Of a DNA stretch of 64,000 nt, positions 6,770-60,123 are shown piece by piece. The stretch's first letter is position 1; every line of letters begins with the position of its first letter. Source of the DNA: Desulfovibrio aminophilus DSM 12254 (GTDB taxonomy: Bacteria; Desulfobacterota; Desulfovibrionia; Desulfovibrionales; Desulfovibrionaceae); contig NZ_AUMA01000008.1 in the NCBI RefSeq assembly GCF_000422565.1, positions 186,001 to 250,000 of the forward strand, written 5' to 3'. The position numbers and the translations under genes were made by a program. Below the pieces are notes generated by a model. It was not told where the DNA came from, searched no databases, and saw only the letters and a list, made by a program, of their open reading frames with translations.

Positions 6770-6853
6770 GTGGCTGCCTCGTCGGGGTTGGAGTGGCCGG
6801 AGCCTAGCCCAAGCCGCGTCGTGGGGCAAGGGAGGAGCCCCGCGACGGGGGGC

Positions 6854-8140: not shown

Positions 8141-8141
8141 C

Positions 8142-9086
8142 TCAGGCGTTCTCCAGGATTTTCTGCACTTCCAAGGGCGCGCCCTTTTCCGGGGCCGGCT
8201 CCAGGGAGAGGGCGGACTTGGCGCAGTGGCCCACGCAGACGCCGCAGCCCATGCAGCGCTTGACGTTCACCTTGCAGACCCCGTCGCGCACGCGCATGGC
8301 CTTGAACTGGCAGGATTTCAGGCACTGGCCGCAGCCCACGCAGGCGTCCGCGTCCACCCGGCAGAGGTAGCCCGAGGAGCAGAGCATGGGGATGCCGTGG
8401 GCCTGAGCCCGCATGGCCCCGCAACAACAGGCGCAGCAGTTGCAGATGGCGTAGAAGCGGCCGAGCATGGCGTCCTTGAAGAAGGCGTGGTGCACATGGC
8501 CCCGGGCGTCCTCCTCCTTGAGGATGCGCACGGCCTCTTCCGGGGTGATGGCCCGGGAGCGCTCGGGATTGTGCTCCAGGATGAAGGAGGCGAAGGGTTC
8601 CCCGACGATGAGGCAGACGTCCATAGGTAGGCAGGGGGTCTCGCTCATGGCGCGGCAGGGGCAGTCCAGGAGCGCGATGCGCTCGGGGTTCTTGAGCACG
8701 ATGTCGCGGGCCAGGGCGTAGGGGATGACCTGTTCCTGGCCGCGCAACTCCACGCTTCGATTCACCGTCACGAGCCGCGTGGCCTCTTCCAACGGCAGGG
8801 CCTTGCCGTGGTAGGAGTCGGCGAATCCCGGGCGGCCGGTCTTCCCGGGCTTGAGCGGGCGGTGGCGCAGAAGGAGCAGGAGCAGGGGCGAGAGCAGGAT
8901 CGCGGCCCACTTGCGCCGCCCGGTGGCCACGCCGATGTAGAGGTAGGGCCAGCGGGCGTAGACGTAGCCGTGCAGCAGTTCGCCCCAGGCCACGCCGTCG
9001 GCCCGTCCCTCCCGGAAGAAGGCCAGGGTCGAGGGCCGCAGCAGACGCGCAAGAAGACGTTGGGGAAGCGCCGTGGAGTCGCTCAT
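8142..9086 (-). CDS. 4Fe-4S ferredoxin-domain protein, Cys-rich, membrane-associated
   Basis: Protein of about 314 residues. Two C-terminal [4Fe-4S] sites are clear: CVGCGQCLKSC and CMGCGVCVGHC (about 235-285). Upstream lie CPCRAMSETPC and a dense CNCCACCCGAM, which could hold a further metal centre. One hydrophobic stretch near residue 65 (ILLSPLLLLLL) suggests a membrane anchor. ATG at 9086 is chosen over a GTG nine bases earlier because of the AGGGTG stretch at about the right distance; the GTG cannot be excluded. It heads an operon with the DUF401 permease. An electron-transfer role follows from the clusters; the partner is unknown. Confidence 0.83.
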   Translation of the reverse strand: MSDSTALPQRLLARLLRPSTLAFFREGRADGVAWGELLHGYVYARWPYLYIGVATGRRKWAAILLSPLLLLLLRHRPLKPGKTGRPGFADSYHGKALPLEEATRLVTVNRSVELRGQEQVIPYALARDIVLKNPERIALLDCPCRAMSETPCLPMDVCLIVGEPFASFILEHNPERSRAITPEEAVRILKEEDARGHVHHAFFKDAMLGRFYAICNCCACCCGAMRAQAHGIPMLCSSGYLCRVDADACVGCGQCLKSCQFKAMRVRDGVCKVNVKRCMGCGVCVGHCAKSALSLEPAPEKGAPLEVQKILENA

Positions 9087-9190
9087 GGGAGGCACCCTAG
9101 CACCCTCGAAGAACGTTGCAAACCGGCACTCCCGGCGAGGGGCTGGAGAAACCGGGACGTTGGTGTATGATCCGGGCCCGGAGGATCCGC

Positions 9191-9607
9191 ATGAAGAGCG
9201 AGAAGGAAACCGCGTCGGACCAGGGCTGCCGGGACGAGCGCGACCGTCTGGCGCGCACCACCACCCATCTGGCCAACACCCGGACCTATCTGGCCTGGGT
9301 GCGAACGGCCATCGCCCTCATGGCCTTCGGCTTCGTGCTGGAGCGCGTGGACCTGCTGCTCTTCCTGGCCCCCGGCGGGGGGGCCCACCCGGCGAGCACG
9401 GAAAAGCTGGGCCTGGTGAGCCAGTTCTGCTTCGGAGCAGGAGCTCTGATCCTGCTGCTCTCGGCGGCCCGGACCCGTTCCATCGCCCTGCGCATCGGCT
9501 CGGACGGCACGAAGCTGCGCGGCTTGGCCGAGACGGTGATCCTGCTGGTGGTTCTGGCCCTGGCCCTCTACTTCGCGGCCAACGGCAAGACGCTGCTCGC
9601 GCTCTAG
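9191..9607 (+). CDS. DUF202-family inner-membrane protein
   Basis: Protein of 138 residues with three membrane segments. LANTRTYLAWVRTAIALMAF near residue 30 is the DUF202 (YidH-like) signature. The start is the ATG at 9191 behind a strong GGAGGATCC ribosome site; an in-frame ATG at 9116 would add a poorly composed leader. Function of the family is unknown. It converges on typA, whose stop lies one base beyond its own. Confidence 0.87.
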   Translation: MKSEKETASDQGCRDERDRLARTTTHLANTRTYLAWVRTAIALMAFGFVLERVDLLLFLAPGGGAHPASTEKLGLVSQFCFGAGALILLLSAARTRSIALRIGSDGTKLRGLAETVILLVVLALALYFAANGKTLLAL

Positions 9608-9608
9608 T

Positions 9609-11450
<1,842 letters not shown>

Positions 11451-47030: not shown

Positions 47031-49109
47031 TTATTTGGTCACTGCCACGAAATGCTCCTGCATGGCAATGCCGCCCCCGCCCTTATCCCATTTTTCGATG
47101 CCCTTCGGCATGAGTTCGTTGTCCGCGACGCCCTTGCCCCTGGCCCGGCTCTCCACCGGCAGGGTGTGGCCGAAACCGTGGATCATGAAGACCGCCTCGG
47201 GATGGATGAAGTCCGTGACGAAGGCCTTGATCCGGCCGGAATGGCCGTTGGAGGACACCGTCACGTATTCGCCGTCGGCGATGTCCAGTTCCTTCGCAGC
47301 GTCGCTATGAATCCAGAGCAGGTTTTCGGGCATCTGCTCGAAGAGCAGGGGGTTGTTCACCGTGTGGCCCTGGGTATGCACGCCGCAACGGCCGAAGGTG
47401 ATCCTGAAGCGGCCCTTGGGCGGACGTTCCGGGGAGGTGTAAGGCGCGAGCCAAGGCAGGCCGGACTTGGCCAGGCGGGAAGAGGCGATCTCCACCTTGC
47501 CGGATTCGGTCTTGAACTTGAGCTCCTCCATCTTGCGGTAGAGGGGATCGGCGGCCAGGGACACGGAACCGCTCTTCTCGAAGTCGGCGATGGTCAGACC
47601 GGTGTCCTGCAACTGGAAGGCCCAGATGTCCTCGATGCGTTCGTAGGCCAGCTTGTCGATGCCCATGCGCTTGGCCAGCCCGCAGTAGATCTCCCACACG
47701 GACTTGGTGTCGTAGAGCGGTTCGCAGGCGCGTTTGCGCACGAAGAAGGAGGGCTTGAGGCCGTTTTTCGTGGCGATGGTGTCCTCGCGTTCCAGGTAGG
47801 TGGACATCGGCAGGACCACGTCCGAGTACCAGGCCGTGTCGGACCAGGAGAAGGTCACGGACACGAGCAGCTCCAGGTTGTCCAGGATCTTCTTCACGTC
47901 GGCGGAGTCCGGGAAGGCCATGAGCGGATCGTGGCGTTGGACGATGTAGGCCTTGATAGGGTAAGGCTCGCCTGTGACGATGGCCTCGTAGGCCAGATGC
48001 ACCAGTCCAGGCCCGGCGTCGTAGTGCGTGCGGCCGGACATCCAGCCCACGCCGTCCGCGCGTTTTTCGGCGGGCTTGGGGAATTGCTCCATGAGGCTTT
48101 TGAGGCCCTTTTTCCCGACGTCGCCGGGCTTGGCCGTGAGCGGCAGTCCGCCCTTGGCTCCGACCGCGCCGAGCAGGGCGTTGATGATGTATGCCGTGCG
48201 GCAGACATAGAAGGAGTCGGAGTAGCGGGAAACCATCCAGCCCGGGTGCCAGATGACTGAGGGCGCGGCGGCGGCCAACTGACGGGCCAGGTCGCGGATG
48301 CGCTCGGCCGGGATGCCGGTCTCGGCCTCGGCCCATTCCGGGGTGTGCTTGGCGGTGAAGACCTTCAGTTCGTCCAGCCCGCTGATCCACATCTCCGCGA
48401 ATTTCTTGTCGTGGAGATCCTCGGCCAGGAGCACGTGGATCACGGCCAGATTCAGGGCGTAGTCCGTTCCCGGCCGGATGAGGTAGAAGTTGTCGGCCTT
48501 GCCCGCCGAGATGTTGGCCCGCACGTCGATGACCGAGAGCTTGCAGCCCGCGCCCATGCCGTCCAGGGCGTTGTTCACTTCGGCCACGTTGATGGCCTCG
48601 AAGATGTTCCGGGTCTGGAGCACGAGGTGTTTGCAGTTCTTGTAATCGTAGACCACGTCCTTGCGGCCGAAGCCGAACACGGACATGGCCGCGTTCATGA
48701 CGTTGCGCGCGCAGGCCGAGTCGTGGTTGCAGTAGTTGGGCGTGCCGATGGCCCGCAGAAAGGCGCGGTACACGTCGCGGAACGGGCCTCCCCGGTCGGA
48801 GAGAAGCACGGAACGGTCGCCGTGCTTGGCCCGGATTTCGTTCAGGCGCTTGGCCACGTAGTCCAGGGCCTCGTCCCAACTCACGCGCCGCCAGCGGCCT
48901 TCGCCTCGCGCGCCCTCGCGGATCATGGGATGCTGGGGGCGTTCCGAATCTTCGTAAAGGGCGATGCCCGCCGCGCCGCGCGCGCAGAGGGATCCCTTGA
49001 GGGCTTGGCCGCCCTGCAGGCGGACGGGGCGTCCGTCCTCCACCTCGGCCTGGATCGGGCAGCGCACCGAGCACATGCCGCAGACGCTGTTCACCGTGGT
49101 CTTGGTCAT
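47031..49109 (-). CDS. molybdopterin oxidoreductase, PhsA/PsrA-like, cytoplasmic
   Basis: Protein of 692 residues of the DMSO-reductase superfamily. The N-terminal [4Fe-4S] motif is CGMCSVRC-x(n)-C (residues 10-17 and GSLCARG). Mo-pterin segments follow (WDEALDYVAKRL; HDSACARNVMNAAMSVFG, whose Cys could be the Mo ligand; LPMSTYLEREDT), then the C-terminal dinucleotide-binding barrel (GRCGVHTQGHTVNNPL). MTKTTV at 49109 behind GGAGG leaves no Tat signal, so it should be cytoplasmic, unlike typical thiosulfate or polysulfide reductases. The Fe-S partner is encoded divergently. Substrate unknown; sulfur oxyanions are one option, given the TauE gene nearby. Confidence 0.88.
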   Translation of the reverse strand: MTKTTVNSVCGMCSVRCPIQAEVEDGRPVRLQGGQALKGSLCARGAAGIALYEDSERPQHPMIREGARGEGRWRRVSWDEALDYVAKRLNEIRAKHGDRSVLLSDRGGPFRDVYRAFLRAIGTPNYCNHDSACARNVMNAAMSVFGFGRKDVVYDYKNCKHLVLQTRNIFEAINVAEVNNALDGMGAGCKLSVIDVRANISAGKADNFYLIRPGTDYALNLAVIHVLLAEDLHDKKFAEMWISGLDELKVFTAKHTPEWAEAETGIPAERIRDLARQLAAAAPSVIWHPGWMVSRYSDSFYVCRTAYIINALLGAVGAKGGLPLTAKPGDVGKKGLKSLMEQFPKPAEKRADGVGWMSGRTHYDAGPGLVHLAYEAIVTGEPYPIKAYIVQRHDPLMAFPDSADVKKILDNLELLVSVTFSWSDTAWYSDVVLPMSTYLEREDTIATKNGLKPSFFVRKRACEPLYDTKSVWEIYCGLAKRMGIDKLAYERIEDIWAFQLQDTGLTIADFEKSGSVSLAADPLYRKMEELKFKTESGKVEIASSRLAKSGLPWLAPYTSPERPPKGRFRITFGRCGVHTQGHTVNNPLLFEQMPENLLWIHSDAAKELDIADGEYVTVSSNGHSGRIKAFVTDFIHPEAVFMIHGFGHTLPVESRARGKGVADNELMPKGIEKWDKGGGGIAMQEHFVAVTK

Positions 49110-49437
49110 GGGAAAAACCTCCTCGGAAAAGTCGTCTTTCGAGCCGGAAGGCCCGTTGGTTACTATCACGGGATTATCATTTTTAGGGCACCTGAAGCGG
49201 CTTGGGCAAGCAAAATCGAGAATGTGAAAAAAGAAACAATTTCCCGGACAAAGTCGGGGAGCGGGCATCTGGTTTCAAGCAACATATTGGGAATTTGTGA
49301 ACAAAAGGGAAATTCATTGACACAAAGTCGCCGGATGTGGTTCCAATGGTCTATGTGTCCCAGAGGTTGGGACGCGGTGTCGCCATTTTCACGGGATGGG
49401 GCGGGCGGGGTGTCACCTGGCCCGGCAAGGAGCGTTC
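49110..49437. promoter_or_regulatory. divergent control region of the Mo-enzyme cluster
   Basis: 328 bases without a gene, AT-richer than its surroundings. It contains the dyad TTTGTGAACAAA (49294-49305) nested in GAATTT...AAATTC (49291-49314), and a TTGACA (49318-49323) upstream of the Fe-S gene without a convincing -10 box. Near 49160-49185 is TACTATCACGGGATTATCA, a loose dyad on the oxidoreductase side. The elements could be operators, but I cannot name the regulator. Confidence 0.4.
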
Positions 49438-49887
49438 ATGAGCATCTACAAGATCAAGCTGGACAAGAAGCGCTGCATCGCCTGCAAGGCCTGCGAGGTG
49501 CATTGCAAGGTGAAGAACCACGTGCCCGTAGGCATCCAGCTCAACCACATCTTCGTGGAAGGGCCCAGGGCGCGCAAGGACGGCCGGCCGGAATTCGTGA
49601 CCAAGTATCAGCCCTGCCTCATGTGCAAGGAGCCCAAGTGCGTGCCTGCCTGTCCCACCGGGGCCATGACCATGCGCGAGTCCGATGGGCTGGTCTACGT
49701 GCGCACCGAGCTGTGCGACGGCTGCAAGGCCTGCATCGAGGCCTGCCCCTGGAGCGTGCCGGTGTTCAATGAACTGACCGGCAAGATCATGAAGTGCGAC
49801 TATTGCATGGATCGCATCGAGCAGGGGCTGGACCCGGCCTGCGTCACGGGCTGCACGGCCAAGGCCCTGAGTTTCACGCGCCCCTGA
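49438..49887 (+). CDS. 4Fe-4S dicluster electron-transfer subunit (PhsB/DmsB-like)
   Basis: Protein of 149 residues. Four Cys groups, CIACKACEVHC, CLMCKEPKCVPAC, CDGCKACIEAC and CDYCMDRIEQGLDPACVTGC, are in the order of DmsB/PhsB-type subunits binding up to four [4Fe-4S] clusters. ATG at 49438 follows AAGGAG. There is no signal peptide, matching the cytoplasmic oxidoreductase encoded divergently, with which it probably forms a two-subunit enzyme. No membrane anchor gene is present, so ferredoxin or NAD-linked partners are more likely than quinones. Confidence 0.9.
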   Translation: MSIYKIKLDKKRCIACKACEVHCKVKNHVPVGIQLNHIFVEGPRARKDGRPEFVTKYQPCLMCKEPKCVPACPTGAMTMRESDGLVYVRTELCDGCKACIEACPWSVPVFNELTGKIMKCDYCMDRIEQGLDPACVTGCTAKALSFTRP

Positions 49888-49969: not shown

Positions 49970-51124
49970 GTGCTGCACTCGAAAAGAATGCTCTTCATCG
50001 TGGCCCTGATCGTCATGGTCGGGGTCTGCCTGTGGTTCGAGCCCGCCTGGGCCGACAAACTGTCCGACGCCATCGCCAGCGCGCCGCAGGGCGCCGAGGC
50101 CGGTCAGATCGATCCCAGCAAACCGGCGGGCTTTCTCGGCATTCCCGGCGCTCCGAGCGTGAACCTCATCCTGGCCTTCGTCTGGGCCGTGTGGGTGGGC
50201 TGGATTTTCTCCACCGTGGGTGCGTTCGGCGGCGTCATGGCCGGTGTGGGCCACATGACCGTGTTCGGTCTGGGCGCCTACGCCAAGAGCTTCAAGACCA
50301 CCGCCCCCGCGCTGAACAAGCTGGCCACCGACTCCATCCGCGCCTCCAACCAGTTCCTGGTCGGCACCTCGGCGCTCATCTCCTCCTTCAACTACTGGAA
50401 GATGGGCCGTCTGGTGCTGCCCCTGGCCGTTGCGCTGGGCGCGGGCTCGCTCCTGGGCGCCTGGGGGTCGGCCACGCTGACCGCTGGCAAGATCTCCTTC
50501 TCCCAGTACCAGGGCTGGTTCGGCCTCTTCGTCCTGGTCCTCGGCTGCTACCTCTTCTGGGAAACCTCCGGCGCGGGCCAGGCCAGCAAAAAGAAGGCCA
50601 AGGCCGCGGCCAAGGCCTTCGAGGAATCGGTCAAGAAGCAGAAGGCCGGCGAGCAGGTGGACACCAAGGCCATGGGCGTGAAGACCACCAAGTTCACCCT
50701 GACCCGTTGCGAATTCACCTTCTACGGAGTCGAGTTCGCCTTCAATCCGCTGATCCCCCTGCTGGGCGGCATCGTCATCGCGGCCGTGGCGGCCTTCCTG
50801 GGCGTGGGCGGCGGCTTCCTGCTGGTGCCCTTCCTGACCAGCGTGGCCCAGCTGCCCATGTATCTGGCGGCGGGCACCTCGGCCCTGGCCGTGCTCATCT
50901 CCATGATCACGAGCATCGCCACCCTGATGACCAAGGGCACCCCGGTGGACTGGAGCCTCATCGGGCTTGAGTTGGTGGGCATCATCGTGGGTTCGGTCAT
51001 CGGCCCGCGCACCTCCAAGTACTTCTCCGATCTTTGGCTCAAGCGTCTGTTCATCGTGCTTTCGCTTTACGTCGGCATCGACTATGTGTTGAGGGGTTTC
51101 TTCAACTACCGCATCTTCGGCTAG
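49970..51124 (+). CDS. TauE/SafE-family anion exporter
   Basis: Protein of 384 residues starting at GTG 49970 behind GTGAGGAGG. About nine membrane segments; a charged cytoplasmic loop near 203-240 (KKKAKAAAKAFEESVKKQKA) splits the two halves. The second half carries the family motif GVGGGFLLVPFL, and the first a related GAFGGVMAG. The family exports sulfite, sulfoacetate and other organosulfur anions. It lies 82 bases downstream of the Fe-S subunit gene on the same strand, linking the Mo enzyme to sulfur oxyanion metabolism by context only. A terminator follows. Confidence 0.9.
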   Translation: MLHSKRMLFIVALIVMVGVCLWFEPAWADKLSDAIASAPQGAEAGQIDPSKPAGFLGIPGAPSVNLILAFVWAVWVGWIFSTVGAFGGVMAGVGHMTVFGLGAYAKSFKTTAPALNKLATDSIRASNQFLVGTSALISSFNYWKMGRLVLPLAVALGAGSLLGAWGSATLTAGKISFSQYQGWFGLFVLVLGCYLFWETSGAGQASKKKAKAAAKAFEESVKKQKAGEQVDTKAMGVKTTKFTLTRCEFTFYGVEFAFNPLIPLLGGIVIAAVAAFLGVGGGFLLVPFLTSVAQLPMYLAAGTSALAVLISMITSIATLMTKGTPVDWSLIGLELVGIIVGSVIGPRTSKYFSDLWLKRLFIVLSLYVGIDYVLRGFFNYRIFG

Positions 51125-51145
51125 CCGACGGCGTCACCGACAACC

Positions 51146-51180
51146 AAGGGGCTCCGGGCAAGCGGCCCGGGGCCCCTTTT
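51146..51180 (+). terminator. intrinsic terminator after the TauE gene
   Basis: AAGGGGCTCCGGGC (51146-51159) pairs with GCCCGGGGCCCCTT and is followed by TTTT (51177-51180), ten bases before the next start codon. The following operon therefore probably needs its own promoter or depends on read-through. Confidence 0.8.
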
Positions 51181-51189
51181 GCGTGGGAT

Positions 51190-51777
51190 ATGGACGGACT
51201 CCGCGATTTCCTGCTGATCCTGGATCCCTGGCTCATCCAGCCTTTTCGTTGGCTGGACGCGCCGATGCCCGCGTTTCTCCTTGGCATCTTCGCGCTTTCC
51301 CTGGTCTGCGTGTTCCTGGGCGATCTCGCGGCTCTGGCCGTACTGCGTCTGAACCGCAAGGTCTTCGGCGGCTACCTCAAGGACATGGTCCGCCACCACG
51401 AACTTTCCATCACGGCGGCCAAGACCGGCAGCAAGGAGAACTTCAAGGCCGTCAACCGCCAGGCCCACGAGGCCTTCGGCAAGTACTTCTTCAGCCAGGC
51501 CGCCGTGTTCACGTCCAGCATCTGGCCCGTGCCCTTCGCCCTGGCCTGGCTGGACATCCGTTTTCAGGGCGTGCTCATCAAGCTCCCCCTGATGGATTTC
51601 GAGGCCAACTACGTCTTTTTCTTTCTCCCCCTGTACATCCTGGCGCGGATTCTCTATTCTCGGACGATCGGGCGCATCCCCTGGTATGCCCGGATGCGGG
51701 CGGCCGCCACCCTGGACATCGGCGAGGATGCCGCACATTCCGCCCCGGGAACGGGAGGCGGGCGGCAAGGAGTCTGA
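51190..51777 (+). CDS. conserved membrane protein of unknown function
   Basis: Protein of 195 residues. Membrane segments at about 25-50 (FLLGIFALSLVCVFLGDLAAL), around 95-115 (VFTSSIWPVPFALAW) and 138-160 (VFFFLPLYILARILY). The loop between the first two is charged and helical (DMVRHHELSITAAKTGSKEN). The layout of a helix, a coiled cytoplasmic loop and further helices faintly recalls the Oxa1/DUF106 superfamily, but this is a guess. ATG at 51190 has only a GTGGG-like ribosome site. It ends 12 bases before the PhnD-like gene and so seems to open the 51.2-58.7 kb operon. Confidence 0.7.
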   Translation: MDGLRDFLLILDPWLIQPFRWLDAPMPAFLLGIFALSLVCVFLGDLAALAVLRLNRKVFGGYLKDMVRHHELSITAAKTGSKENFKAVNRQAHEAFGKYFFSQAAVFTSSIWPVPFALAWLDIRFQGVLIKLPLMDFEANYVFFFLPLYILARILYSRTIGRIPWYARMRAAATLDIGEDAAHSAPGTGGGRQGV

Positions 51778-51789
51778 AGGAGCCGTCGC

Positions 51790-52713
51790 ATGCGCAAGGA
51801 GTACTGGGCCGTCGGCTTGGCCGCGCTGGCGCTGCTGATCCTGGCCGTGGGCTGGGAGCGGGATGAACCGGCGACCCGTGTGGATCTCTCCCGGCGCGTG
51901 GACATCACCCTCAAGACCCAGGCCGAAGCCATCACCTACGCCTATCTCCCGCAGTACTCCCACAGCATCTCCTTCGAGCGCCACCGGCGCCTGGTGGAAT
52001 ACCTCTCCCGGGTCACGGGATACCCCTTCCGCCAAGTCTTCCCGGACACCTTCGACGAACACGTGAAGATGGTTGAGCGCGGCGAGATCGACATTTCCTT
52101 CTCCAATCCCTTCATCTACATCCGTCTGGCCCGCGCGGGCGCCAGGGCCTTCGCCCGCATCGTGGAGGAGTCCGGCAGGCCGGATTTCCACAGCCAGATC
52201 ATCTGCCGCAAGGACAACCGGGCCATCCGCAGCCTGGAGGATTGCCGAGGCAAGCGTTGGATCGCCGTGGACCCGGGGTCCGCCGGAGGTTTCGTCTTCG
52301 CCCTGGACTATTTCCTGAGCCATGGCATTCAGCGCGAGGACTTCGCCGAGATCGCCTTCGCCCCCGGGCCGGGCGGCAAGCAGGAAAAGGTCGTGCTGGC
52401 GGTCTACGCGGGCAAGTACGACATCGGCTCGGTGCGCAACGGCACGTTGGAGCTGGTCAAGGACAAGGTGGACCTGGACGCCATCCGCGTCCTGGCGGAG
52501 AGCCGCTCCTATCCCGGCTGGGTCTACTCCGCCCGACGGGGCTTCGATCCGGCCCGGCTGAAGGTCATCACCGAGGCCCTGCTCCGCCTGGACCAGGGGG
52601 GAGAAGAGGCGGAGCAGATACTGGCGGCGGCTCATTTCAAGGGCATCATTCCGGCCATGGACGCGGACTACGATTCCATTCGAAGCTTGGCGAACCGCAT
52701 TTCACAGGAGTAG
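51790..52713 (+). CDS. PhnD-like periplasmic phosphate/phosphonate-binding protein
   Basis: Protein of 307 residues, start behind AAGGAG. An N-terminal hydrophobic segment (VGLAALALLILAVGW) is a signal or anchor. The rest is PhnD-type: YAYLPQYSHSISFERHRRLVEYLS, GEIDISFSNPFIYIRLA, and DPGSAGGFVFALDYFL, with YDIGSVRNGTLE as the second-lobe motif. No ABC permease genes adjoin it; instead a sensor kinase starts four bases later, so it likely presents a ligand to the kinase. The ligand might be an oxyanion, but that is unknown. Confidence 0.88.
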   Translation: MRKEYWAVGLAALALLILAVGWERDEPATRVDLSRRVDITLKTQAEAITYAYLPQYSHSISFERHRRLVEYLSRVTGYPFRQVFPDTFDEHVKMVERGEIDISFSNPFIYIRLARAGARAFARIVEESGRPDFHSQIICRKDNRAIRSLEDCRGKRWIAVDPGSAGGFVFALDYFLSHGIQREDFAEIAFAPGPGGKQEKVVLAVYAGKYDIGSVRNGTLELVKDKVDLDAIRVLAESRSYPGWVYSARRGFDPARLKVITEALLRLDQGGEEAEQILAAAHFKGIIPAMDADYDSIRSLANRISQE

Positions 52714-52717
52714 CCGG

Positions 52718-54799
52718 ATGCATGCCCTGGACCGGCTCAAGTTCAGTTCCAAGATCAACCTCGGCACCACGGGCATCGTGCTCTTCCTGAGCCTGGTCAT
52801 GGGCGCGCCCGTCGCCCGGGTGGCCTCCCAGGCCCTGGTGGACGAGGTCAAGATGCGCGGCCGCGTGCTGGCCGAGAGCCTGTCCGTGCGTTCGGCCGAT
52901 CCGGTCCTGGCCCAGGATTTCCTGCGGCTCAAGAACCTGGTGGACGACCTGCGCGGGGTGAGCGGGGACATCGAGTACGCCTTCATCCTGGACAAGGCGG
53001 GCGGCGTCCTGGCCCACAGCTATCCCAAGGGCTTCCCCGTGGATCTCATCACCGCCAACGCCCCCGGCCCCGGCGGAACGTTGTCCGTGCGCCTTCTGGA
53101 CAGCGGGGACGAGCGCATCTACGACTTCGCCGTGCCCGTGCGCGTGGCCGGAGAGTCCTTCGGCACGGCCCGGGTGGGTCTGTCCTGGACCCGGGCCCGG
53201 GCCCCGGTGGAGCGCCTGGGCGGGATCATCCTGGGGCTGGCCGGAGGAGGGCTGTTCGTCTCGGTGGTGCTCTCGACCATCTTCGCCCGCCAGGTGACCC
53301 GGCGGCTCAACATCCTGCGCGCGCACGCCGCCGAGATGGTCACCGGCAACCTGGACATGCAGGCTGGCGGGGAACTGGCCCGCAACTGCTGGGACATCAT
53401 GGACTGCGACCGCAAGGAGTGTCCGGCCTACGGGGACAAGCGGCGGCGCTGCTGGTACGTGGCCGGAACCCTTTGTCTGGAGTGTGACGACGGGCCCTTT
53501 CCTCAGAAGCTGGAGTCCTGCCGGGAATGTCCGGTGTTCCTGGCCAACGCGGGAGACGAGATCCAGGATCTGACCGAGACCTTCGACGCCATGGCCATGA
53601 CGCTCAAGACCCACATCGCGGAGCTGCGCGAGGCCGAGAAGGTTCTCACCCGCCAGCAGCAGATCATGCGCACCATCCTGGACGTGACCCCGGACCTGGT
53701 CAGCCTGCTGGACGAGCACCTCGTCTACCAGGCCTGCAACCGGGCCTTCGCGGCCTCGGTTTCGCGCGAGGTGGACGAGGTGGCGGGCAAGACCGATGCG
53801 GATCTTTTCCCGGCCGAGCTGGCGGCCGCGCGCACCGAGGCCAACCGTCGCGTGCTGCTCACCGGCGAACGCTTTCAGACCGAGACCCGCCGCGAGGCCG
53901 GGCACGGCGAACGCTGGTTCCATACCGTGCAGGTGCCGGTCTTCGACCGCGACGACCGCATCGTGGGCGTTCTGCGCACGGCCCGCGACGTGACCCAGAT
54001 CAAGGATTACCAGGACCAGCTCATCCAGGCCCAGAAGATGGAGTCCATGGGCAAACTGGCCGGAGGCGTGGCCCACGAGATCAACACTCCCCTGGGGATC
54101 ATTCTGGGCTACGCCCAGCTTCTTCAGGAGGACGTTCCCGAGGGGCAGGTGCGCGAGGATCTGGGGACCATCGAACGCCAGGCCAAGGTCTGCCGCAAGA
54201 TCGTGGCCGACCTGCTGGGGTTCTCGCGCCAAGCCCGCAGCGCCAGGCGCGACATGTGTCTGAACAACTCGGTCATGGAAACCGTGACCCTGGTGCGCCA
54301 TTCCTTCGAACTGGACAATGTGCGCATCGTCACCGACCTGGACGAGCGCATGCCGGTGCTTTACGGCGACCCGGACAAGCTCCGCCAGGTCTGGATGAAT
54401 CTTTTGACCAACGCCCGCGACGCCATGCCGGGTGGGGGTATGGTTTTCGTCCGCACGAGACTGGACACCGGGGCCCAAAAGGTGACAGTCTGGGTGGCGG
54501 ACACCGGCTCGGGCATCGAACCGGCCATCCTGGGGCGCATTTTCGATCCGTTCTTCAGCACCAAGCCCGTGGGCAAGGGCACGGGCCTGGGGCTGGCGGT
54601 ATCCTTCGGAATCGTCAAGGAACACGGAGGGGACATCTCGGCCCAGAGCCCGGTGCCGACGGACTTCGGACTGCCTCGGGGAGAGGCGGCCGGGGAGCAT
54701 GGCGCGGGATCGGTGTTCGCGGTGCATCTGCCGTTGGACCACGGGGAACGGGACGATGAAGACACGCCGGCCCCCGGAGATGGCGCAAAAGAGGAGTGA
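52718..54799 (+). CDS. sensor histidine kinase with two-CW Cys domain
   Basis: Protein of 693 residues. TM1 (about 15-37) and TM2 (about 165-190) flank a periplasmic domain (LVDDLRGVSGDIEYAFILD, GERIYDFAVPV-like). HAMP begins near 195 and is interrupted by a Cys-rich 'two-CW' segment (about 224-271: CWDIMDC, CPAYGDKRRRCW, CLEC, CRECPVF) that may bind an Fe-S or other metal centre. PAS at about 320-430; H-box GGVAHEINTPLGIILG with His near 453; HATPase to about 680 (LLTNARDAM, VADTGSGIE, FDPFFSTK, GTGLGLAVSFGI). The receiver gene begins four bases after its stop. Likely senses ligand via the PhnD protein plus intracellular redox. Confidence 0.93.
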   Translation: MHALDRLKFSSKINLGTTGIVLFLSLVMGAPVARVASQALVDEVKMRGRVLAESLSVRSADPVLAQDFLRLKNLVDDLRGVSGDIEYAFILDKAGGVLAHSYPKGFPVDLITANAPGPGGTLSVRLLDSGDERIYDFAVPVRVAGESFGTARVGLSWTRARAPVERLGGIILGLAGGGLFVSVVLSTIFARQVTRRLNILRAHAAEMVTGNLDMQAGGELARNCWDIMDCDRKECPAYGDKRRRCWYVAGTLCLECDDGPFPQKLESCRECPVFLANAGDEIQDLTETFDAMAMTLKTHIAELREAEKVLTRQQQIMRTILDVTPDLVSLLDEHLVYQACNRAFAASVSREVDEVAGKTDADLFPAELAAARTEANRRVLLTGERFQTETRREAGHGERWFHTVQVPVFDRDDRIVGVLRTARDVTQIKDYQDQLIQAQKMESMGKLAGGVAHEINTPLGIILGYAQLLQEDVPEGQVREDLGTIERQAKVCRKIVADLLGFSRQARSARRDMCLNNSVMETVTLVRHSFELDNVRIVTDLDERMPVLYGDPDKLRQVWMNLLTNARDAMPGGGMVFVRTRLDTGAQKVTVWVADTGSGIEPAILGRIFDPFFSTKPVGKGTGLGLAVSFGIVKEHGGDISAQSPVPTDFGLPRGEAAGEHGAGSVFAVHLPLDHGERDDEDTPAPGDGAKEE

Positions 54800-54802
54800 G
54801 TC

Positions 54803-55162
54803 ATGGCCGACATCATCGTGGTGGACGATATTTCGGACGCGGGCGTCCTGGTCAAGCGCATCTTGGAGCGTGGAGGCCACAAGGTCACGGCCTTCACCGA
54901 GGAGGAGGACGCCCTGGCCTTCGTGCGCAAGAACAAGCCGGACCTGGCCATTCTGGACATGAAGCTGAAGAAGATGACTGGGGTGGAGGTTCTGGAGGAG
55001 ATCAGGAAGCTGTCCCCCGACACCAAGGCCATCATGCTCACCGGCTATCCCACGCTGGAGACGGCCCGTGAGGCCCTGCGCCTGGGGGCCGGCGAGTACT
55101 GCGTCAAGCCCATCGACAAGGGCGAGTTGGAGGCCAAGGTGGCCGAAGTGCTGGCCGGGTAG
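54803..55162 (+). CDS. single-domain response regulator
   Basis: Protein of 119 residues, receiver only: DD at 8-9, phospho-acceptor D52 (AILDMKLKKMTG), Thr in MLTGYP, Lys in CVKPID. No output domain, so the phosphoryl signal must pass to another protein; the PEP-synthase-like and phosphatase products encoded directly after it are candidate targets. Good GAGGAG site upstream; 11 bases separate it from the next gene. Confidence 0.94.
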   Translation: MADIIVVDDISDAGVLVKRILERGGHKVTAFTEEEDALAFVRKNKPDLAILDMKLKKMTGVEVLEEIRKLSPDTKAIMLTGYPTLETAREALRLGAGEYCVKPIDKGELEAKVAEVLAG

Positions 55163-55173
55163 CGGCGGCCGTC

Positions 55174-57627
55174 ATGTCGCTCATCACCCAGCTCTTCCGG
55201 CACTGGACCTATCAGGTCTTCGCCCCGGGGTCTCTGCTGCGGGCCAAGTACAACGCCTTCAAGGATCTCCTGCGCTCCGACGACATCTGCCTCTCGCTCA
55301 TCGCGGACCTGGAGGAGCTGGCCTACGGCCAGGACAAGGCCGATCAGGCCCGGGTGGTCTGGCTTTGCGAACGGCTCTCGGCGGCGGTGGAGCGTTTGGT
55401 CGGCAACCTCATGGCCATGAGCCCCACGCGTTACATGGGCCTGCCCGAGCACTTCAAGAAGATCGACTTCTATCTGCGCATGGCCCTGGACCGGCCCGGC
55501 GGGGACATCGCTCCGCCGTATCTGCTTTCGCTCGCCGAGGCCGCCGGACGCCAGGAGCTTGCGGGCGGCAAGGCCGCCAACCTGGGCCGAGTCGCCGTGG
55601 AGACGGATCTCGCGGTGCCCCCGGGCTACTTGGTCAACGCCAACGCCTTTCACTACTTCATCGAGGCCGCCGGACTGCGCCGCCCTCTGGACCGCAGACT
55701 GCGCCAGATCGTGCTTTCCCGCCCGGAGGACGTGCCGCGTCTGGCGGGCGAACTCATGGAGGTCATCCTTGGGGCGGAGGTGCCCCAGGGGCTCGCCGCC
55801 CAAATTCAGGCCGCGGCCGACGAACTGTCCCGGGGCGGCCGCCTGCTGGCGGTGCGCAGCAGCGCCCTGGCCGAGGACTCGGAACTGTCTTTCGCCGGGC
55901 AGTACGCCAGCGAACTGCACGTGCGGCCCGACGACGCGGTCGAGTCCTACAAACGGGTTCTGGCCGGAAAATACTGCTCCCGGGCCCTGGTCTACCGCAT
56001 CTCCCACGGGCTTTCGGACACGGAGACGGCCATGTCGGTCCTGATCTTGCCCATGATCGAGCCCAAGGCCGCGGGCGTGCTCTACACCCTGGACCCCGAG
56101 GGATGCCCGCTCTCGGGCGAACCCGAGGCCATGTCCCTGTTCGCCGTCTCGGGCCTGGGCGAGAGCCTTGTGGACGGCAGCCGCACGCCGCGCCGCCTCC
56201 TGCTCTCGCGCCGCGGCCGCCCGAAAATACTCGCGGCATGCAGCGGCCCCGGGCCGGTGCCGCTTTCCGAGGCCTCGCTGGCGGACCTGCGCGAGGCGGG
56301 GCTCAAGCTGGAGACCCTTTTCGGACGGCCCCAGGACGTGGAGTGGGCCGTGGACGCCGAGGACCGCCTGTTCATCCTCCAGTCCCGCCAGTTCCACATG
56401 GATGCCCCGCGCCATGAAGCGCGATCCGTCCCCCGGGCGGAAGTCCTCGCCTCCGGCCTGATCCGCGCCTCCGGCGGCGTGGCCGCCGGAACGGTCCGGC
56501 ATTTGCGGACCGTGGGCGAGCTGACCTCCTTCCCGCCCGGAGCCGTGGCCGTGACCTCCACCCTGCCGCCGATCCTGGCCCAGTTCGCCGGGCGTTTGGC
56601 CGCCGTGGTCGCCGAAACCGGGTCGCGGGCCAGCCATCTGGCCTCCGTGGCCCGGGAGAACGGCATCCCCGTGCTCGTCGGTCCCGGGGGCTTCCAGTCC
56701 CTGCCCGAGGGCGCGGAGGTCACGGTGGACGCCGACGCCGGGGCGGTCTACGCCGGGCGCGTGGATGAACTGCTGCCGCCGCCCAGCGTGGAGGGCGAAC
56801 GTGTGGCGGACCCCCGCTTCGCCCGCATCCTGCCCTTGACGGCCAAGCTGAGCCTCACCGATCCCGAGGCCCCGGAGTTCAGCCCCGAAGGCTGCAAGTC
56901 CCTGCACGACATGGTGCGCTTCTGTCACGAGAAGGGCGTGGCGGAGATGTTCAGCCTGGTGGGCAAGGGCGGCCGGGGGCTGGCCAGCTCACGCAAGTTG
57001 CGGACCGAATTGCCTCTGGTGCTCTACCTCCTGGATCTGGAGGACGGCCTGTTCGACTCCGGCCGATCCCGTTCCGAGGTTTTGCCGGAGGACATCAAGA
57101 GCCAGCCCATGTGGGCCTTCTGGTGGGGGCTGGCCGACCGGAGCGTGGGCTGGGGCGATCTGGTGCATGTGGACTGGGAGGAGCTGGACCGCGTGAGCGC
57201 GGGCATCTTCTCCAAGAACTCCCGTCTGCTGGCCAGCTACGCCATCATCTCGGCGGACTATCTGCACTGCATGATCCGCTTTGGCTACCATTTCTCGGTT
57301 CTGGATTCGGTCTGCGGCCATGAGGTCAACGGCAACTACATCCAGTTCCGCTTCAAGGGCGGGGGAGGGAGCCTGGAGCAGCGTCTGCTGCGCCTGGAGT
57401 TCCTCACCGGAGTGCTGACCCGGCTGGGCTTCGAGTGCTCCACCCGGGGCGACATGCTGGACGCCAAGTACGCCCGCAAGCCCGAGAACGACACGCAGAA
57501 GCGGCTGGCGGCCCTGGGCTACCTCACGGCCGTGACCCGGCTCATGGACATGGGGCTCAAGGACCGGGAACAGGTGGAGGGTTTGGTGGACCAGCATCTG
57601 CGGCGCATCGAGCGGGGCCGCGCGTGA
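55174..57627 (+). CDS. PEP-synthase-like phosphotransferase lacking the PEP barrel, with unknown C-terminal domain
   Basis: Protein of 817 residues. Residues 1-120 are unassigned helices. Residues 125-415 are the ATP-grasp domain of pyruvate phosphate dikinase/PEP synthase (GGKAANLGRV near 130, LAVRSSALAEDSELSFAGQY near 227, DVEWAVDAEDRLFILQSRQ). Residues 430-530 are the swivelling phospho-His domain: His near 488 in GSRASHLASVAREN; the usual T-C/S-H reads A-S-H. The TIM-barrel PEP/pyruvate domain is missing; instead about 270 residues (550-817) form a domain I cannot assign. It should transfer phosphate from ATP via His to an unknown acceptor. It overlaps the phosphatase gene by four bases. 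Confidence 0.87.
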   Translation: MSLITQLFRHWTYQVFAPGSLLRAKYNAFKDLLRSDDICLSLIADLEELAYGQDKADQARVVWLCERLSAAVERLVGNLMAMSPTRYMGLPEHFKKIDFYLRMALDRPGGDIAPPYLLSLAEAAGRQELAGGKAANLGRVAVETDLAVPPGYLVNANAFHYFIEAAGLRRPLDRRLRQIVLSRPEDVPRLAGELMEVILGAEVPQGLAAQIQAAADELSRGGRLLAVRSSALAEDSELSFAGQYASELHVRPDDAVESYKRVLAGKYCSRALVYRISHGLSDTETAMSVLILPMIEPKAAGVLYTLDPEGCPLSGEPEAMSLFAVSGLGESLVDGSRTPRRLLLSRRGRPKILAACSGPGPVPLSEASLADLREAGLKLETLFGRPQDVEWAVDAEDRLFILQSRQFHMDAPRHEARSVPRAEVLASGLIRASGGVAAGTVRHLRTVGELTSFPPGAVAVTSTLPPILAQFAGRLAAVVAETGSRASHLASVARENGIPVLVGPGGFQSLPEGAEVTVDADAGAVYAGRVDELLPPPSVEGERVADPRFARILPLTAKLSLTDPEAPEFSPEGCKSLHDMVRFCHEKGVAEMFSLVGKGGRGLASSRKLRTELPLVLYLLDLEDGLFDSGRSRSEVLPEDIKSQPMWAFWWGLADRSVGWGDLVHVDWEELDRVSAGIFSKNSRLLASYAIISADYLHCMIRFGYHFSVLDSVCGHEVNGNYIQFRFKGGGGSLEQRLLRLEFLTGVLTRLGFECSTRGDMLDAKYARKPENDTQKRLAALGYLTAVTRLMDMGLKDREQVEGLVDQHLRRIERGRA

Positions 57628-58694
57628 GCCCGCCCAAGGCGGCGGACGGGATCACCTGGATCACGGACCGTCTGGCCGTGGGCGGCGCGCCCATGTCCTA
57701 CGGCCAGTTGGACACGCTGCGCGCACAGGGCATCACCGCCATCCTCAACCTCTGCGGCGAATTCTGCGATCTGCACGAGATCGAGGCCGACTCCGGCTTC
57801 GAGGTCTACTATCTGCCCATCAGCGACGAGGAGGCCCCGGACCTTCAGACTCTGGAAAAGGCCCTGGAGTGGCTGGACGAGGCCCTTTATCTGGGCAAGA
57901 AGGTCTACATCCATTGCCGCCACGGCATCGGCCGCACGGGCACGGTGCTCAACGCTTATCTCCTGCGCCGGGGTCTGGGCCACAAGCTGGCCTGGCTCAA
58001 GCTGCGCAAGCTGCGCTCCAAGCCGAGCAACTTCGAGCAATGGTGGGCGGTGCGCAAATACGGCCGCAAGGCCGGGCAGCTCACGGTGCGCGAACCGTGC
58101 CTGGAGTACAAGAATTTCGTGGATCTTGGGCCGTTTCTGGCCGACTACGAGGCCCTGGTGTCCCGGGCCGAGGATCTCTTCTCCTACGAGAGCGGGGAGG
58201 GGTCGCGCTGCGGCCGGGACCACGACCGCTGCTGCTCCATTCCAGTGCATCTTTCCCTGGTGGAGGCCGTGCATGTGCGGCGCAAGGTGGACGCCGCCAC
58301 CACCAGCCAGGCCCGCCAACAGCTCATCGAGCGCGCCGTGGCCGCCGCCCGCAGCGAGCACGAGGCTCGGGCCGCCGTGCCCACCACCGCGCCGACGGAA
58401 TTCTGTCTCTCGGCCTCGGGCGCGCGTTGTCCGCTGTCGGAAGACGGCAAGTGCCTGATCTTCGACTTCCGGCCCCTGCAGTGCCGGACCCATGAACTGG
58501 ACGAGGAGACCAAGCAGGATCTCTGGCAGAACGTGCTCGAGCCGGTCCTGAAGCAGTCCTCGGCCCAACTCTTCTTCGCCCTGACCTCGCGTTTCCCCAA
58601 GGAAGGGCCGCCGTCCTTCTCCCTGGCCGACGTGGTCTCGGGCAAATATGTGCAGGACTTCTTCCACGCCCTGATGAAGGCGGGGAAGGGCTGA
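57624..58694 (+). CDS. dual-specificity phosphatase fused to a YkgJ-like Cys-cluster domain
   Basis: Protein of 356 residues starting at GTG 57624, overlapping the previous stop (GTGA). Residues 8-150 are a dual-specificity/tyrosine phosphatase: the P-loop HCRHGIGRTG near residue 97 has the CX5R nucleophile, and the general-acid Asp may lie in PISDEEAPD. Residues 195-300 show a YkgJ-type pattern: CGRDHDRCCSIPVHLSLVEA, CLSASGARCPL, CLIFDFRPLQCRTHE. The fusion of a phosphatase with a metal-chelating Cys domain is unusual and suggests redox- or metal-controlled dephosphorylation. Coupling to the His-phosphotransferase gene suggests opposing activities on a shared target. Confidence 0.88.
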   Translation: MSPPKAADGITWITDRLAVGGAPMSYGQLDTLRAQGITAILNLCGEFCDLHEIEADSGFEVYYLPISDEEAPDLQTLEKALEWLDEALYLGKKVYIHCRHGIGRTGTVLNAYLLRRGLGHKLAWLKLRKLRSKPSNFEQWWAVRKYGRKAGQLTVREPCLEYKNFVDLGPFLADYEALVSRAEDLFSYESGEGSRCGRDHDRCCSIPVHLSLVEAVHVRRKVDAATTSQARQQLIERAVAAARSEHEARAAVPTTAPTEFCLSASGARCPLSEDGKCLIFDFRPLQCRTHELDEETKQDLWQNVLEPVLKQSSAQLFFALTSRFPKEGPPSFSLADVVSGKYVQDFFHALMKAGKG

Positions 58695-58725
58695 TCCGTA
58701 TCAGACCGTCTGGGCTCCGGACCGG

Positions 58726-60123
58726 TCAGCGTTTGGCGGGTTTGGGCGCGGGCTTCGCCGCGGCGGGCTTGGCCTGCGGTTTGGCGGCCGCGTCGCCCCC
58801 GGCCTGGGCGGCCAGGGCCATGAGCTGGGCGTAGCTCTCCTCCAGGGGCTGGCGGTCGGCCACGCGCTGCTGCAGAAAGGCGTTGATGGGCTGGATGAGC
58901 CGCAGGGCGGTGTCGATCTCCGGGCTGGAGCCGCGCTGGTAGGCCCCGATGTTGACCATGTCCTCCACGCGCTTGAACGTGGCGAGGTACTTGAGGGCCA
59001 CGCGCCCGGCGTCCTGGACCTCGGCCGGGGTGATGTCCGAGCGCAGACGGGAAATGCTCTTGAGCACGTCGATGGCCGGGAAATGGCCCTGGTCGGCCAG
59101 ATCGCGGGTGAGAACCACGTGTCCGTCGAGGATCGAGCGAGTGGAGTCCGCGATGGGCTCGGTGAAGTCGTCTCCGTCCACGAGCACGGTGTAGATGCCG
59201 GTGATGGAGCCCTCGACGCTCTTGCCCGCGCGTTCCAGGAGCTTGGGCAGGTGGGCGAAGACGCTCGGGGTGTAGCCGCCGCGCGTGGGAGGTTCTCCGG
59301 CCGCCAGCCCCACCTCGCGCCCGGCCATGGCGAAGCGCGTCACCGAGTCCATCATGAGCAGCACGTCCGCGCCCTTGTCGCGGAAGAACTCCGCGATGGC
59401 CGTGGCGGTGTAGGCCGCGCGCATGCGGATGAGCGGGCTCTTGTCCGAGGTGGCGATGACGAGCACGGAGCGGGCCAGACCCTCCGGGCCCAGGTCGCGC
59501 TCGATGAACTCCAGCACCTCGCGGCCGCGTTCGCCCACCAGGCCGATGACGTTCACGTCGGCCTTGGTGTAGCGGGCCATCATGCCGAGCAGGGTGCTCT
59601 TGCCCACGCCGGAACCGGCCATGATGCCCACGCGCTGGCCCTTGCCCAGCGTCAAAAGTCCGTTGATGGCCCGTACGCCCACGTCCAGGGGCTCAAGGAT
59701 GCGCGGCCGCGACATGGGGTTCGGCGGTTCCCCGAAAAGCGGGCGGAAGGATTCGGGCACGAAGGGCCCCAAGGAGTCCAGGGGTTCGCCGAAGGCGTCC
59801 ACGGCGCGGCCCAGCAGGGCCTCGCCCACGGGCACGTGCGGCGGGATCGAGGAGTTGCGGATCAGGCAGCCCGGGGCCACGCCGCGCAGGTCGCCGTAGG
59901 GCATGAACAGGCAGGAACCGCCCCGGAAGCCGACCACCTCGGCCGCGATGGCCGACGCCTCGTCGCCGGATTCCGGCAGCAGGTGGCAGACCGAGCCGAT
60001 GGGGGCCTTGATGCCCTGGCCTTCGGCGATGAGGCCGACCACCTTGGTGACCTTGCCGTAGCTCCGGCAGGCGTCCAGTTCCTCGAACAGCGCGCAGCAG
60101 CCGCGCGGATCAAGCGCCGCCAT
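58726..60123 (-). CDS. fliI: flagellar export ATPase FliI
   Basis: Protein of 465 residues. Walker A GIMAGSGVGKST near 175, Walker B LLMMDSVTRFA, and GEPPTRGGYTPSVF are intact, as in F1-beta-like type III export ATPases. The C-terminus ends in an Ala/Lys/Pro-rich tail (about 440-465) not found in most FliI. It hydrolyses ATP to unfold and deliver flagellar substrates to the export gate. It overlaps fliH by 14 bases and is the last gene seen of the leftward flagellar operon. Confidence 0.97.
   Translation of the reverse strand: MAALDPRGCCALFEELDACRSYGKVTKVVGLIAEGQGIKAPIGSVCHLLPESGDEASAIAAEVVGFRGGSCLFMPYGDLRGVAPGCLIRNSSIPPHVPVGEALLGRAVDAFGEPLDSLGPFVPESFRPLFGEPPNPMSRPRILEPLDVGVRAINGLLTLGKGQRVGIMAGSGVGKSTLLGMMARYTKADVNVIGLVGERGREVLEFIERDLGPEGLARSVLVIATSDKSPLIRMRAAYTATAIAEFFRDKGADVLLMMDSVTRFAMAGREVGLAAGEPPTRGGYTPSVFAHLPKLLERAGKSVEGSITGIYTVLVDGDDFTEPIADSTRSILDGHVVLTRDLADQGHFPAIDVLKSISRLRSDITPAEVQDAGRVALKYLATFKRVEDMVNIGAYQRGSSPEIDTALRLIQPINAFLQQRVADRQPLEESYAQLMALAAQAGGDAAAKPQAKPAAAKPAPKPAKR

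Follow-up and report, generated by a model that had tools for sequence, protein, structure and literature searches.

We report that six genes of Desulfovibrio aminophilus DSM 12254, together with the TauE/SafE permease gene in front of them, match by gene order and domain content the published 'nitrate cluster' of sulfate-reducing bacteria (DVU0251-DVU0245 and Dde_0597-0605). The six genes lie at positions 51190-58694 of the window, a 64,000-nt stretch of contig NZ_AUMA01000008.1 to which all coordinates refer. They encode a small membrane protein, a periplasmic receptor of the PhnD family, a histidine kinase, a lone receiver, a dikinase-like protein (here PPS) and a phosphatase of the DSP family. 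We propose, with a probability of about 0.4, that they form an AioXSR-like sensor of a sulfur oxyanion, in which the DNA-binding output would be replaced by the lone receiver and a dikinase/phosphatase pair that controls an importer.

The genes concerned are as follows.

49988-51124, plus strand: TauE/SafE permease (PF01925, 1.3e-26; likely start, open reading frame opening at 49895)
51146-51180, plus strand: terminator-like hairpin in the interval between TauE and gene 1 (fold of −31.6 kcal/mol, z −3.39)
51190-51777, plus strand: gene 1, membrane protein of 195 amino acids with an EMC3/TMCO1-like layout in its predicted structure; no Pfam match
51790-52713, plus strand: gene 2, periplasmic receptor of the PhnD/PtxB/AioX family (PF12974 Phosphonate-bd, 3e-59)
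52718-54799, plus strand: gene 3, histidine kinase with sCache, HAMP, a cysteine-rich two-CW segment, PAS, HisKA and HATPase (Pfam)
54803-55162, plus strand: gene 4, lone receiver of 119 amino acids (PF00072, 1.2e-25)
55174-57627, plus strand: gene 5 (PPS), dikinase-like protein of 817 residues (PPDK_N, 5.3e-61, and PEP-utilizers mobile domain, 1.6e-13)
57624-58694, plus strand: gene 6, DSP (CX5R) phosphatase with a fused YkgJ-like cluster of cysteines (Pfam)

Conservation of the gene set

The reference set comprised 199 genomes of the order (genomes are labelled G, loci L and genera g). A query with the C-terminal domain of PPS found some match in 171 of them, and the matches at E<=1e-60, present in 109, were taken as orthologues. 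From these 109 genomes 59 loci were hand-picked for spread over genera; some are cut by contig ends, and a paralogue from the D. aminophilus genome itself (L097) was excluded. Receptor and kinase genes were adjacent in 49/59 loci, kinase and receiver in 47/59, receiver and PPS in 52/59, and PPS and DSP in 56/59. All five of genes 2-6 were adjacent and in order in 46 of the 59 orthologous loci, and this set occurs far beyond chance. TauE stood directly before gene 1 on the same stretch in 34 loci.

A second collection, the named loci, was taken as the best 80 of 471 confirmed stretches; it partly covers the same genomes as the 199, was counted apart and contains many loci cut by contig ends. 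Among these 80, PPS adjoined DSP in 72 and the receiver in 49, and all five genes were in order in 41. By their record titles the named loci span Desulfobulbus, Desulfopila, Desulfobacca, Desulfosarcina, a member of the Thermodesulfobacteriaceae and one metagenome-assembled genome of the Nitrospiraceae, whose locus (L169) has all five genes in place. The closest named relative among these best 80 of 471 was 'Desulfovibrio sp. UBA4079', at 85%.

Co-occurrence was scored at thresholds set after the score gaps had been seen (PPS 1e-60, receiver 1e-36, DSP 1e-50, TauE 1e-60); for receivers, only the best 22 candidates per genome were scored in full. Across the 199 genomes, PPS and DSP were both present in 108 and both absent in 86, with PPS alone in 1 and DSP alone in 4. 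For PPS and the receiver the numbers were 106 both, 3 PPS alone, 10 receiver alone and 80 neither, and for PPS and TauE 106 both, 3 PPS alone, 37 TauE alone and 53 neither; the genomes are related, so these counts are not independent events, kinship inflates the tables and Fisher values overstate the association. TauE without PPS, receiver or DSP occurred in 29 genomes, mostly of genus g3. Lower-scoring PPS matches in G009, G012 and G073 are probably diverged PPS.

The sequence-only reading had treated the kinase, receiver and last two genes as one shared system, and the neighbourhoods agree with this: PPS and DSP were discordant in only 5 of 199 genomes, and loci in which the last two genes stand apart from the kinase and receiver are a minority, PPS lacking an adjoining receiver in 7/59. 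In 13 of the 14 genomes of genus g13 receiver and PPS are separated, and receiver, PPS, DSP and TauE are all kept in 14/14; dispersal of the genes does not end their association.

Other conserved neighbours were mostly shadow frames among the clusters inspected, and two appeared to be real genes. One extra neighbour, present in 8 loci, we take to be DUF169-like. Genes 1 and 2 are separated by a small reverse-strand gene in 11 loci.

Correspondence with the nitrate cluster

By order and family, TauE corresponds to DVU0251/Dde_0598 and genes 1-6 to DVU0250, DVU0249, DVU0248, DVU0247, DVU0246 and DVU0245. Korte et al. 2014 (PMC4001038) used transposon fitness and found that this 'poorly annotated' cluster confers nitrate sensitivity on sulfate reducers. 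The order given there is TauE, a 588-bp hypothetical gene, PtxB, histidine kinase, a 360-bp receiver, a PPDK-like gene and a DSP phosphatase. The same order is found in D. aminophilus, where gene 1 (588 bp) and gene 4 (360 bp) have exactly the lengths of their counterparts. The D. alaskensis cluster differs in having a DUF169 gene in front; none was seen beside the D. aminophilus set.

In D. vulgaris, single transposon mutants of DVU0246, DVU0247, DVU0250 and DVU0251 grew equally with and without 100 mM nitrate, and the DVU0245 phosphatase mutant remained nitrate-sensitive (PMC4001038). In D. alaskensis G20 all eight genes of Table 3 of that paper, kinase and phosphatase included, showed positive fitness. 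Its authors guessed, partly from unpublished data, at a leaky thiosulfate transporter, and they cite unpublished data that G20 mutants are mildly sick on thiosulfate. In the literature, rex mutants share the nitrate phenotype.

The sequence-only reading, which knew of no described pathway with these genes, is wrong on this point, since the set is the published nitrate cluster. Within the literature searched, the queried DVU and Dde tags turned up in PMC4001038 alone, apart from one listing of DVU0251 in PMC3431258. The signalling mechanism of the cluster is undescribed as far as the literature was searched; in the passages of PMC4001038 consulted we met nothing on such a mechanism, on a link to a molybdoenzyme, on an EMC3/TMCO1-like layout, on pseudo-dikinases or on the YkgJ cysteines. 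New here are the pseudo-dikinases beside TauE, which lack the ATP and His sites, the apparently EMC3/TMCO1-like gene 1, two sister loci with a full-length regulator, and a C-terminal domain of PPS without a Pfam match or a confident fold relative.

PPS, its shortened copies and its paralogues

Four parts make up PPS: an N-terminal stretch of 125 amino acids, an ATP-grasp domain, the swivel domain with its histidine H488, and a C-terminal domain of some 285 amino acids. K133, R228 and H488, which we take from PpsA/PPDK to be catalytic, were conserved in 42/42 aligned rows other than the shortened copies described below (39 orthologues and 3 paralogues). PPS shares the ATP-grasp and His swivel domains and their conserved residues with PpsA and PPDK, but differs from them in the N-terminal extension, in its other C-terminal domain and in that no phosphoenolpyruvate (PEP)/pyruvate barrel was found. 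The last 285 amino acids gave no Pfam match at E up to 5, PEP-utilizers_C included, and the best NCBIfam PEP synthase score was 231 against a cut-off of 598. By domain content, PPS is not a PEP synthase. Its ATP domain shows distant sequence kinship with rifampin phosphotransferases.

The C-terminal domain carries charged residues that were invariant in 17 rows (H578, D579, R582, H585, E586, H698, R702, H706, D711, R740 and D760). Its model has a pLDDT of 81.7, and no fold relative could be named (best Foldseek E 0.021, best VIA Z 5.9); the lack of a confident match is not proof of a new fold.

Shortened copies of PPS with open frames (pseudo-PPS) adjoin TauE and gene 1 in several lineages. 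In g13 a search found them without internal stops in 14/14 genomes, placed after the receptor and kinase genes; this order was read in six loci (L190, L194 and L229-L232), and in L229 the receiver still precedes the pseudo-PPS. In nine g39 and three g36 loci (L214, L215, L221, L233-L237 and L244-L247) the pseudo-PPS directly follows gene 1. The ATP-site lysine K133 was lost in 18/18 copies, with the N-terminal part retained. The His swivel domain was absent in 15 copies (g13 and g39), and the three g36 copies, with coverage of 0.27-0.28, also have no His. The C-terminal domain was retained, strongly diverged in g36. Away from these copies, an intact PPS with an adjoining DSP is present in all 14 genomes of g13 and in 9 of the 12 from g39 and g36. 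In a PPS tree of 60 rows all 18 pseudo-PPS lay on one side of a single starred branch; the long branches and skewed make-up of this tree do not distinguish one origin from two. An intact PPS directly follows TauE and gene 1 in five loci of the Desulfobulbaceae/Desulfocapsaceae type (L113, L122, L126, L129 and L165). As PPS is found near TauE and gene 1 whether intact or dead, it accompanies the transporter even without receiver and phosphatase.

Twenty-two non-pseudo paralogues of PPS were inspected (L097, L179, a pair from L178, and copies in 18 out of the 20 loci L181-L200), and a lone receiver was directly adjacent in 4 of them. Paralogues in the D. aminophilus genome itself adjoin lone receivers (L178 and L179), and the L178 run includes another TauE. 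The sister family (paralogue query, E<=1e-90) was found in 157/199 genomes of the order, including genomes without the operon.

Some of these paralogue loci deserve a brief description. L178 (G000:C23:376500-396000) carries at 917-9993 on the minus strand the second TauE, small genes, a lone receiver and a PPS paralogue, then a rhodanese protein and a chemotaxis receptor; a further PPS paralogue with a sigma-54 activator begins next door. At L188:6690-11709 a PPS paralogue in a frame of 1442 amino acids precedes a short DSP phosphatase that lacks the YkgJ part, which makes a further dikinase-DSP pair. In L198 and L200 the paralogues stand within runs of several kinases and lone receivers.

Receptor, kinase, receiver and phosphatase

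The solved relatives of gene 2 include HtxB, PtxB, AioX-type proteins and ArrX. No ABC transporter gene was found among ten proteins scanned around gene 2 with Pfam, where a FliI-like protein gave a sub-threshold ABC_tran match. In the kinase, six cysteines of the two-CW segment (residues 224-271 of gene 3) were invariant in 44/44 aligned sequences. Gene 4 encodes a receiver only: the Pfam scan found no output or DNA-binding domain, and the active-site residues D8, D9, D52, T80 and K102 were kept in 54/54 aligned sequences.

In gene 6 the HCX5R active site was kept in 58/58 aligned sequences. Its match to the CxxCxxCC/YkgJ family was sub-threshold (17.4 bits against a cut-off of 23). C98 and the cysteines at 196, 203, 204, 269, 277 and 287 were invariant in 51/51 aligned relatives, and so was C44, which lies outside the YkgJ part. 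The operon thus has two possible redox or metal inputs, the two-CW cysteines of the kinase and the cysteines of gene 6 including C44. The earlier statement that every part has a recognised domain holds with two reservations, the missing Pfam match of gene 1 and the sub-threshold score of the YkgJ part of gene 6.

The TauE permease, gene 1 and the molybdoenzyme

Where the sequence-only reading had taken the six genes as the whole set, it missed the TauE and molybdoenzyme neighbours, which indicate the likely class of substrate. The unit extends upstream to TauE and, in D. aminophilus, also takes in a PhsB-like ferredoxin together with a PhsA-like enzyme on the divergent side. These neighbours and the gene on the other side are listed here.

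47031-49109, minus strand: PsrA/PhsA-like molybdopterin oxidoreductase, divergent neighbour (Pfam Molybdopterin, 8e-39; likely start at M54 of the open reading frame)
49438-49887, plus strand: PhsB/DmsB-like 4Fe-4S ferredoxin subunit (Fer4_11, 1.2e-22; likely start, open reading frame opening at 49396)
58726-60123, minus strand: FliI-like gene, converging from the other side (protein family scan)

The molybdoenzyme scored 512.8 bits with PRK15488 PhsA, below the cut-off of 694, and its best solved relative was 2vpw, named as a thiosulfate reductase, at 357.5 bits, the next scoring 170.2. The ferredoxin scored 120.9 bits with the DmsB family, below the cut-off of 214.1. No Tat RR motif precedes the Cys motif of the molybdoenzyme in 15/15 rows, the D. 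aminophilus copy included; the enzyme is therefore probably cytoplasmic and would need an importer for its substrate. No membrane subunit for it was found among the ten neighbouring proteins scanned. In their catalytic and ferredoxin subunit families the two proteins resemble the polysulfide and thiosulfate reductases PsrABC and PhsABC, from which they differ in the missing Tat signal, the probably cytoplasmic location and the absence of a membrane subunit among the scanned genes.

The molybdoenzyme was recognised in 14/59 loci. TauE matches at E<=1e-60 were present in 143/199 genomes, and in 32 of 35 TauE loci gene 1 could be recognised no more than about 1.1 kb from TauE; it was missing in L219, L238 and L240, the last of which lies at a contig end. 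TauE, gene 1, molybdoenzyme and ferredoxin form one run in L209, L211 and L212 (g3) and L220 (g21), and these four loci contain no recognisable PPS, DSP, receptor or kinase; L220 has one weak receiver match. From these gene neighbourhoods, the transported substrate would be a sulfur oxyanion, most likely thiosulfate.

The product of gene 1 gave a helical AlphaFold model with a pLDDT of 91, whose layout may be read as a transmembrane helix, a cytoplasmic helical hairpin and two further transmembrane helices. So read, the layout resembles that of EMC3/TMCO1 proteins, a family within the Oxa1 superfamily that is mainly familiar from archaea and eukaryotes. Foldseek alone gave no usable fold (best E 0.68, an unrelated chain). 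A second look with VIA placed 7tut_8 first (Z 9.2, root-mean-square deviation 4.0, 138 aligned) and 6w6l_6 ninth (Z 7.7, root-mean-square deviation 5.1, 135 aligned), both below the level trusted for helical proteins. Both entries are translocons, 6w6l being titled as a ribosome-TMCO1 translocon, and we take both chains to be TMCO1. The D. aminophilus protein itself did not match PF01956, and 2 of 30 relatives did, with a best E of 0.022. In the genome search with PF01956, 8 of 135 rows (the sum over the match counts per genome) fell within 500 bp of an orthologous TauE, that is, at gene 1 of eight other genomes, all sub-threshold. A profile-profile comparison of gene 1 with PF01956 gave E 0.002 at a probability of only 14%. 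The weak profile and structure matches suggest an EMC3/TMCO1-like protein, which is unproven; gene 1 differs from that family in its missing PF01956 match and in being tied to one transporter gene.

Comparison with AioXSR-type sensors

The oxyanion sensors AioXSR, ArxXSR and ArrXSR (PMC5908839) share with the D. aminophilus set a periplasmic protein of the PhnD family, a membrane kinase, a receiver and a link to a molybdoenzyme. AioXSR controls transcription (PMC5908839), whereas the D. aminophilus receiver has no DNA-binding part and is followed by dikinase and phosphatase genes.

Sister loci in G002 and G047 place a phosphonate-binding protein, a kinase and a regulator of 449-452 amino acids beside a diverged TauE, an EMC3/TMCO1 protein, a molybdoenzyme and a ferredoxin. 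In G002 (L249) the phosphonate-binding protein has two such domains, and the regulator consists of a receiver, a sigma-54 domain and a helix-turn-helix domain. As judged from their domains, the G002 and G047 sets follow the AioXSR plan. The same G002 contig also bears the lone-receiver version with PPS and DSP (L096). Between TauE and the molybdoenzyme, PF01956 was matched over its cut-off of 27.1 at 5527-6177 of L249 (27.7) and at 9111-9779 of L250 from G047 (29.9). The hidden Markov model of gene 1 does not match these EMC3/TMCO1 proteins of equivalent position.

Transcription signals

The six genes follow each other on one strand, separated by 12, 4, 3 and 11 bases in turn, and the last pair overlaps by 4 bases; the open reading frame listing and a count on the sequence both bear out the spacing given by the sequence-only reading. 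The terminator that it placed before the six genes is a real hairpin with a 14-pair stem and a short T run, whose RNA fold has the energy and z value given in the first list; the stock terminator scan of the window, which requires five T in eight, does not list it.

Sigma-54 control was not borne out: 18 matches with up to two mismatches were found in the window, against 27 expected from shuffles. A scan of 50500-59500 found no sigma-70-like site. A Rex-like site at 49287-49304, in the interval between molybdoenzyme and ferredoxin, was likewise discarded, being one match with three mismatches where 41 of 100 shuffles gave as many.

Proposed mechanism and alternatives

The operon would supply the sensing and control side of a conserved uptake system for a sulfur oxyanion, most likely thiosulfate. 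TauE and its small EMC3/TMCO1-like partner would bring in the anion, which in some of the genomes would serve the cytoplasmic PsrA/PhsA-like molybdoenzyme. The PhnD-like receptor would sense the anion in the periplasm and signal through the kinase to the lone receiver, in the fashion of AioXSR with the DNA-binding output missing. The phosphorylated receiver may then activate the dikinase-like protein, which would use ATP to charge its swivel histidine and pass the phosphate through its C-terminal domain to a target. TauE and its partner are the most likely target, so that uptake would be turned on post-translationally, and the DSP-YkgJ phosphatase would strip off the phosphate group, perhaps with its cysteine cluster as the regulator. 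Of this scheme, the gene set, the intact residues, the conservation, the co-occurrence and the company of TauE and the molybdoenzyme come from the sequences, and the shared mutant phenotype comes from PMC4001038; the ligand, the contact of receiver and dikinase, the phosphorylated target and the part played by the phosphatase are inferred. A more specific version, a two-component system with an output that is neither transcriptional nor a second messenger, seems doubtful to us: a receiver gating an ATP-driven His-swivel dikinase that acts together with its dead copies in some lineages, phosphorylation switching on TauE and its EMC3/TMCO1-like partner, a redox-sensitive DSP-YkgJ phosphatase reversing this, and recurrence of the receiver-dikinase pair, with other partners, in some paralogues.

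Two proposals of the sequence-only reading fared unevenly. The chain from receptor through kinase to a receiver without output is in line with a receptor family lacking nearby ABC genes and with the intact receiver active site; the pseudogene annotation of the kinase gene in D. vulgaris speaks against it. That genes 5 and 6 are an ATP/His dikinase and a CX5R phosphatase opposing each other fits the intact residues and the D. vulgaris phosphatase mutant that stays sensitive; it fits less well with D. alaskensis, where phosphatase mutants are nitrate resistant too (Dde_0605, +2.08, the lowest of the cluster; PMC4001038), which counts against a simple antagonist role of the phosphatase.

This last result is one of several that weigh against the proposed sensor and control system. 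DVU0248, the D. vulgaris kinase gene, carries a pseudogene annotation, its mutant had little or no advantage in preliminary data, and for DVU0250 and DVU0248 the pooled results conflict with those of single mutants (PMC4001038). The DVU correspondence rests on order, family and gene lengths. Among the 59 loci 24 had no TauE in the fetched stretch of up to 20 kb, and the molybdoenzyme was recognised in a minority, with its score below the PhsA cut-off; of the five g3 loci, L210 and L213 carry TauE and gene 1 but lack the enzyme. The receiver occurs without DSP at the thresholds used in seven genomes, and the pseudo-PPS genomes G039, G052 and G070 keep the receiver without PPS or DSP at these thresholds. 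Eighteen of the 22 PPS paralogues have no directly adjacent lone receiver. The phosphotransfer steps are predictions, and the dikinase might supply a metabolite instead of serving a transporter.

If the dikinase and phosphatase were metabolic, the C-terminal domain would bind a small molecule (a sulfur compound, a sugar or a lipid head group) for the dikinase to phosphorylate, the phosphatase would cleave the product and the two-component system would merely share the operon. Plant glucan, water dikinase with its SEX4-type phosphatase, or rifampin phosphotransferase, offers a likeness. The intact ATP and His residues agree with such a role, as do the invariant charged residues of the C-terminal domain, which resemble an active site, and the kinship of the ATP domain with rifampin phosphotransferases. 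We consider it unlikely, given that PPS and the receiver are discordant in only 13 genomes, that receiver and dikinase mutants show the TauE phenotype (PMC4001038) and that non-catalytic pseudo-dikinases are retained beside TauE. It is quite unlikely that the lone receiver alters expression of tauE and phsAB, whether with the dikinase serving as scaffold or by way of a borrowed regulator, so that resistance of the mutants would reflect lost TauE expression; the G002 and G047 sets, with the sigma-54 and helix-turn-helix regulator of G002, and the transcriptional action of AioXSR (PMC5908839) speak for it, and the missing output domain of the D. aminophilus receiver speaks against it, together with the promoter scans, which are weak evidence.

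The transposon phenotypes might also all come from lost expression of one gene, with its neighbours as passengers. The single strand, the short gaps and the fact that the cluster mutants with growth shown are insertions (PMC4001038) would allow this. TauE, however, is first in order, so that later insertions should not silence it, the last gene is an exception, and the set is conserved across a phylum despite rearrangement; such polarity is highly improbable as the whole explanation. The proposed control of an importer by the dikinase/phosphatase pair remains our preferred reading.

Significance

Nitrate is injected into oil fields against sulfate reducers, and loss of the nitrate cluster is a known route to resistance. 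With a defined sensor, an importer, an enzyme pair and, in part of the genomes, a reductase, the idea of a leaky thiosulfate transporter becomes directly testable. The interest of the cluster now lies in its unusual output and its pseudo-enzymes. If the dikinase and phosphatase are indeed the output, they would be a new kind of output for two-component systems, and this would give a first role to a widespread protein family, whose matches extend to 157 of the 199 genomes at E<=1e-90.

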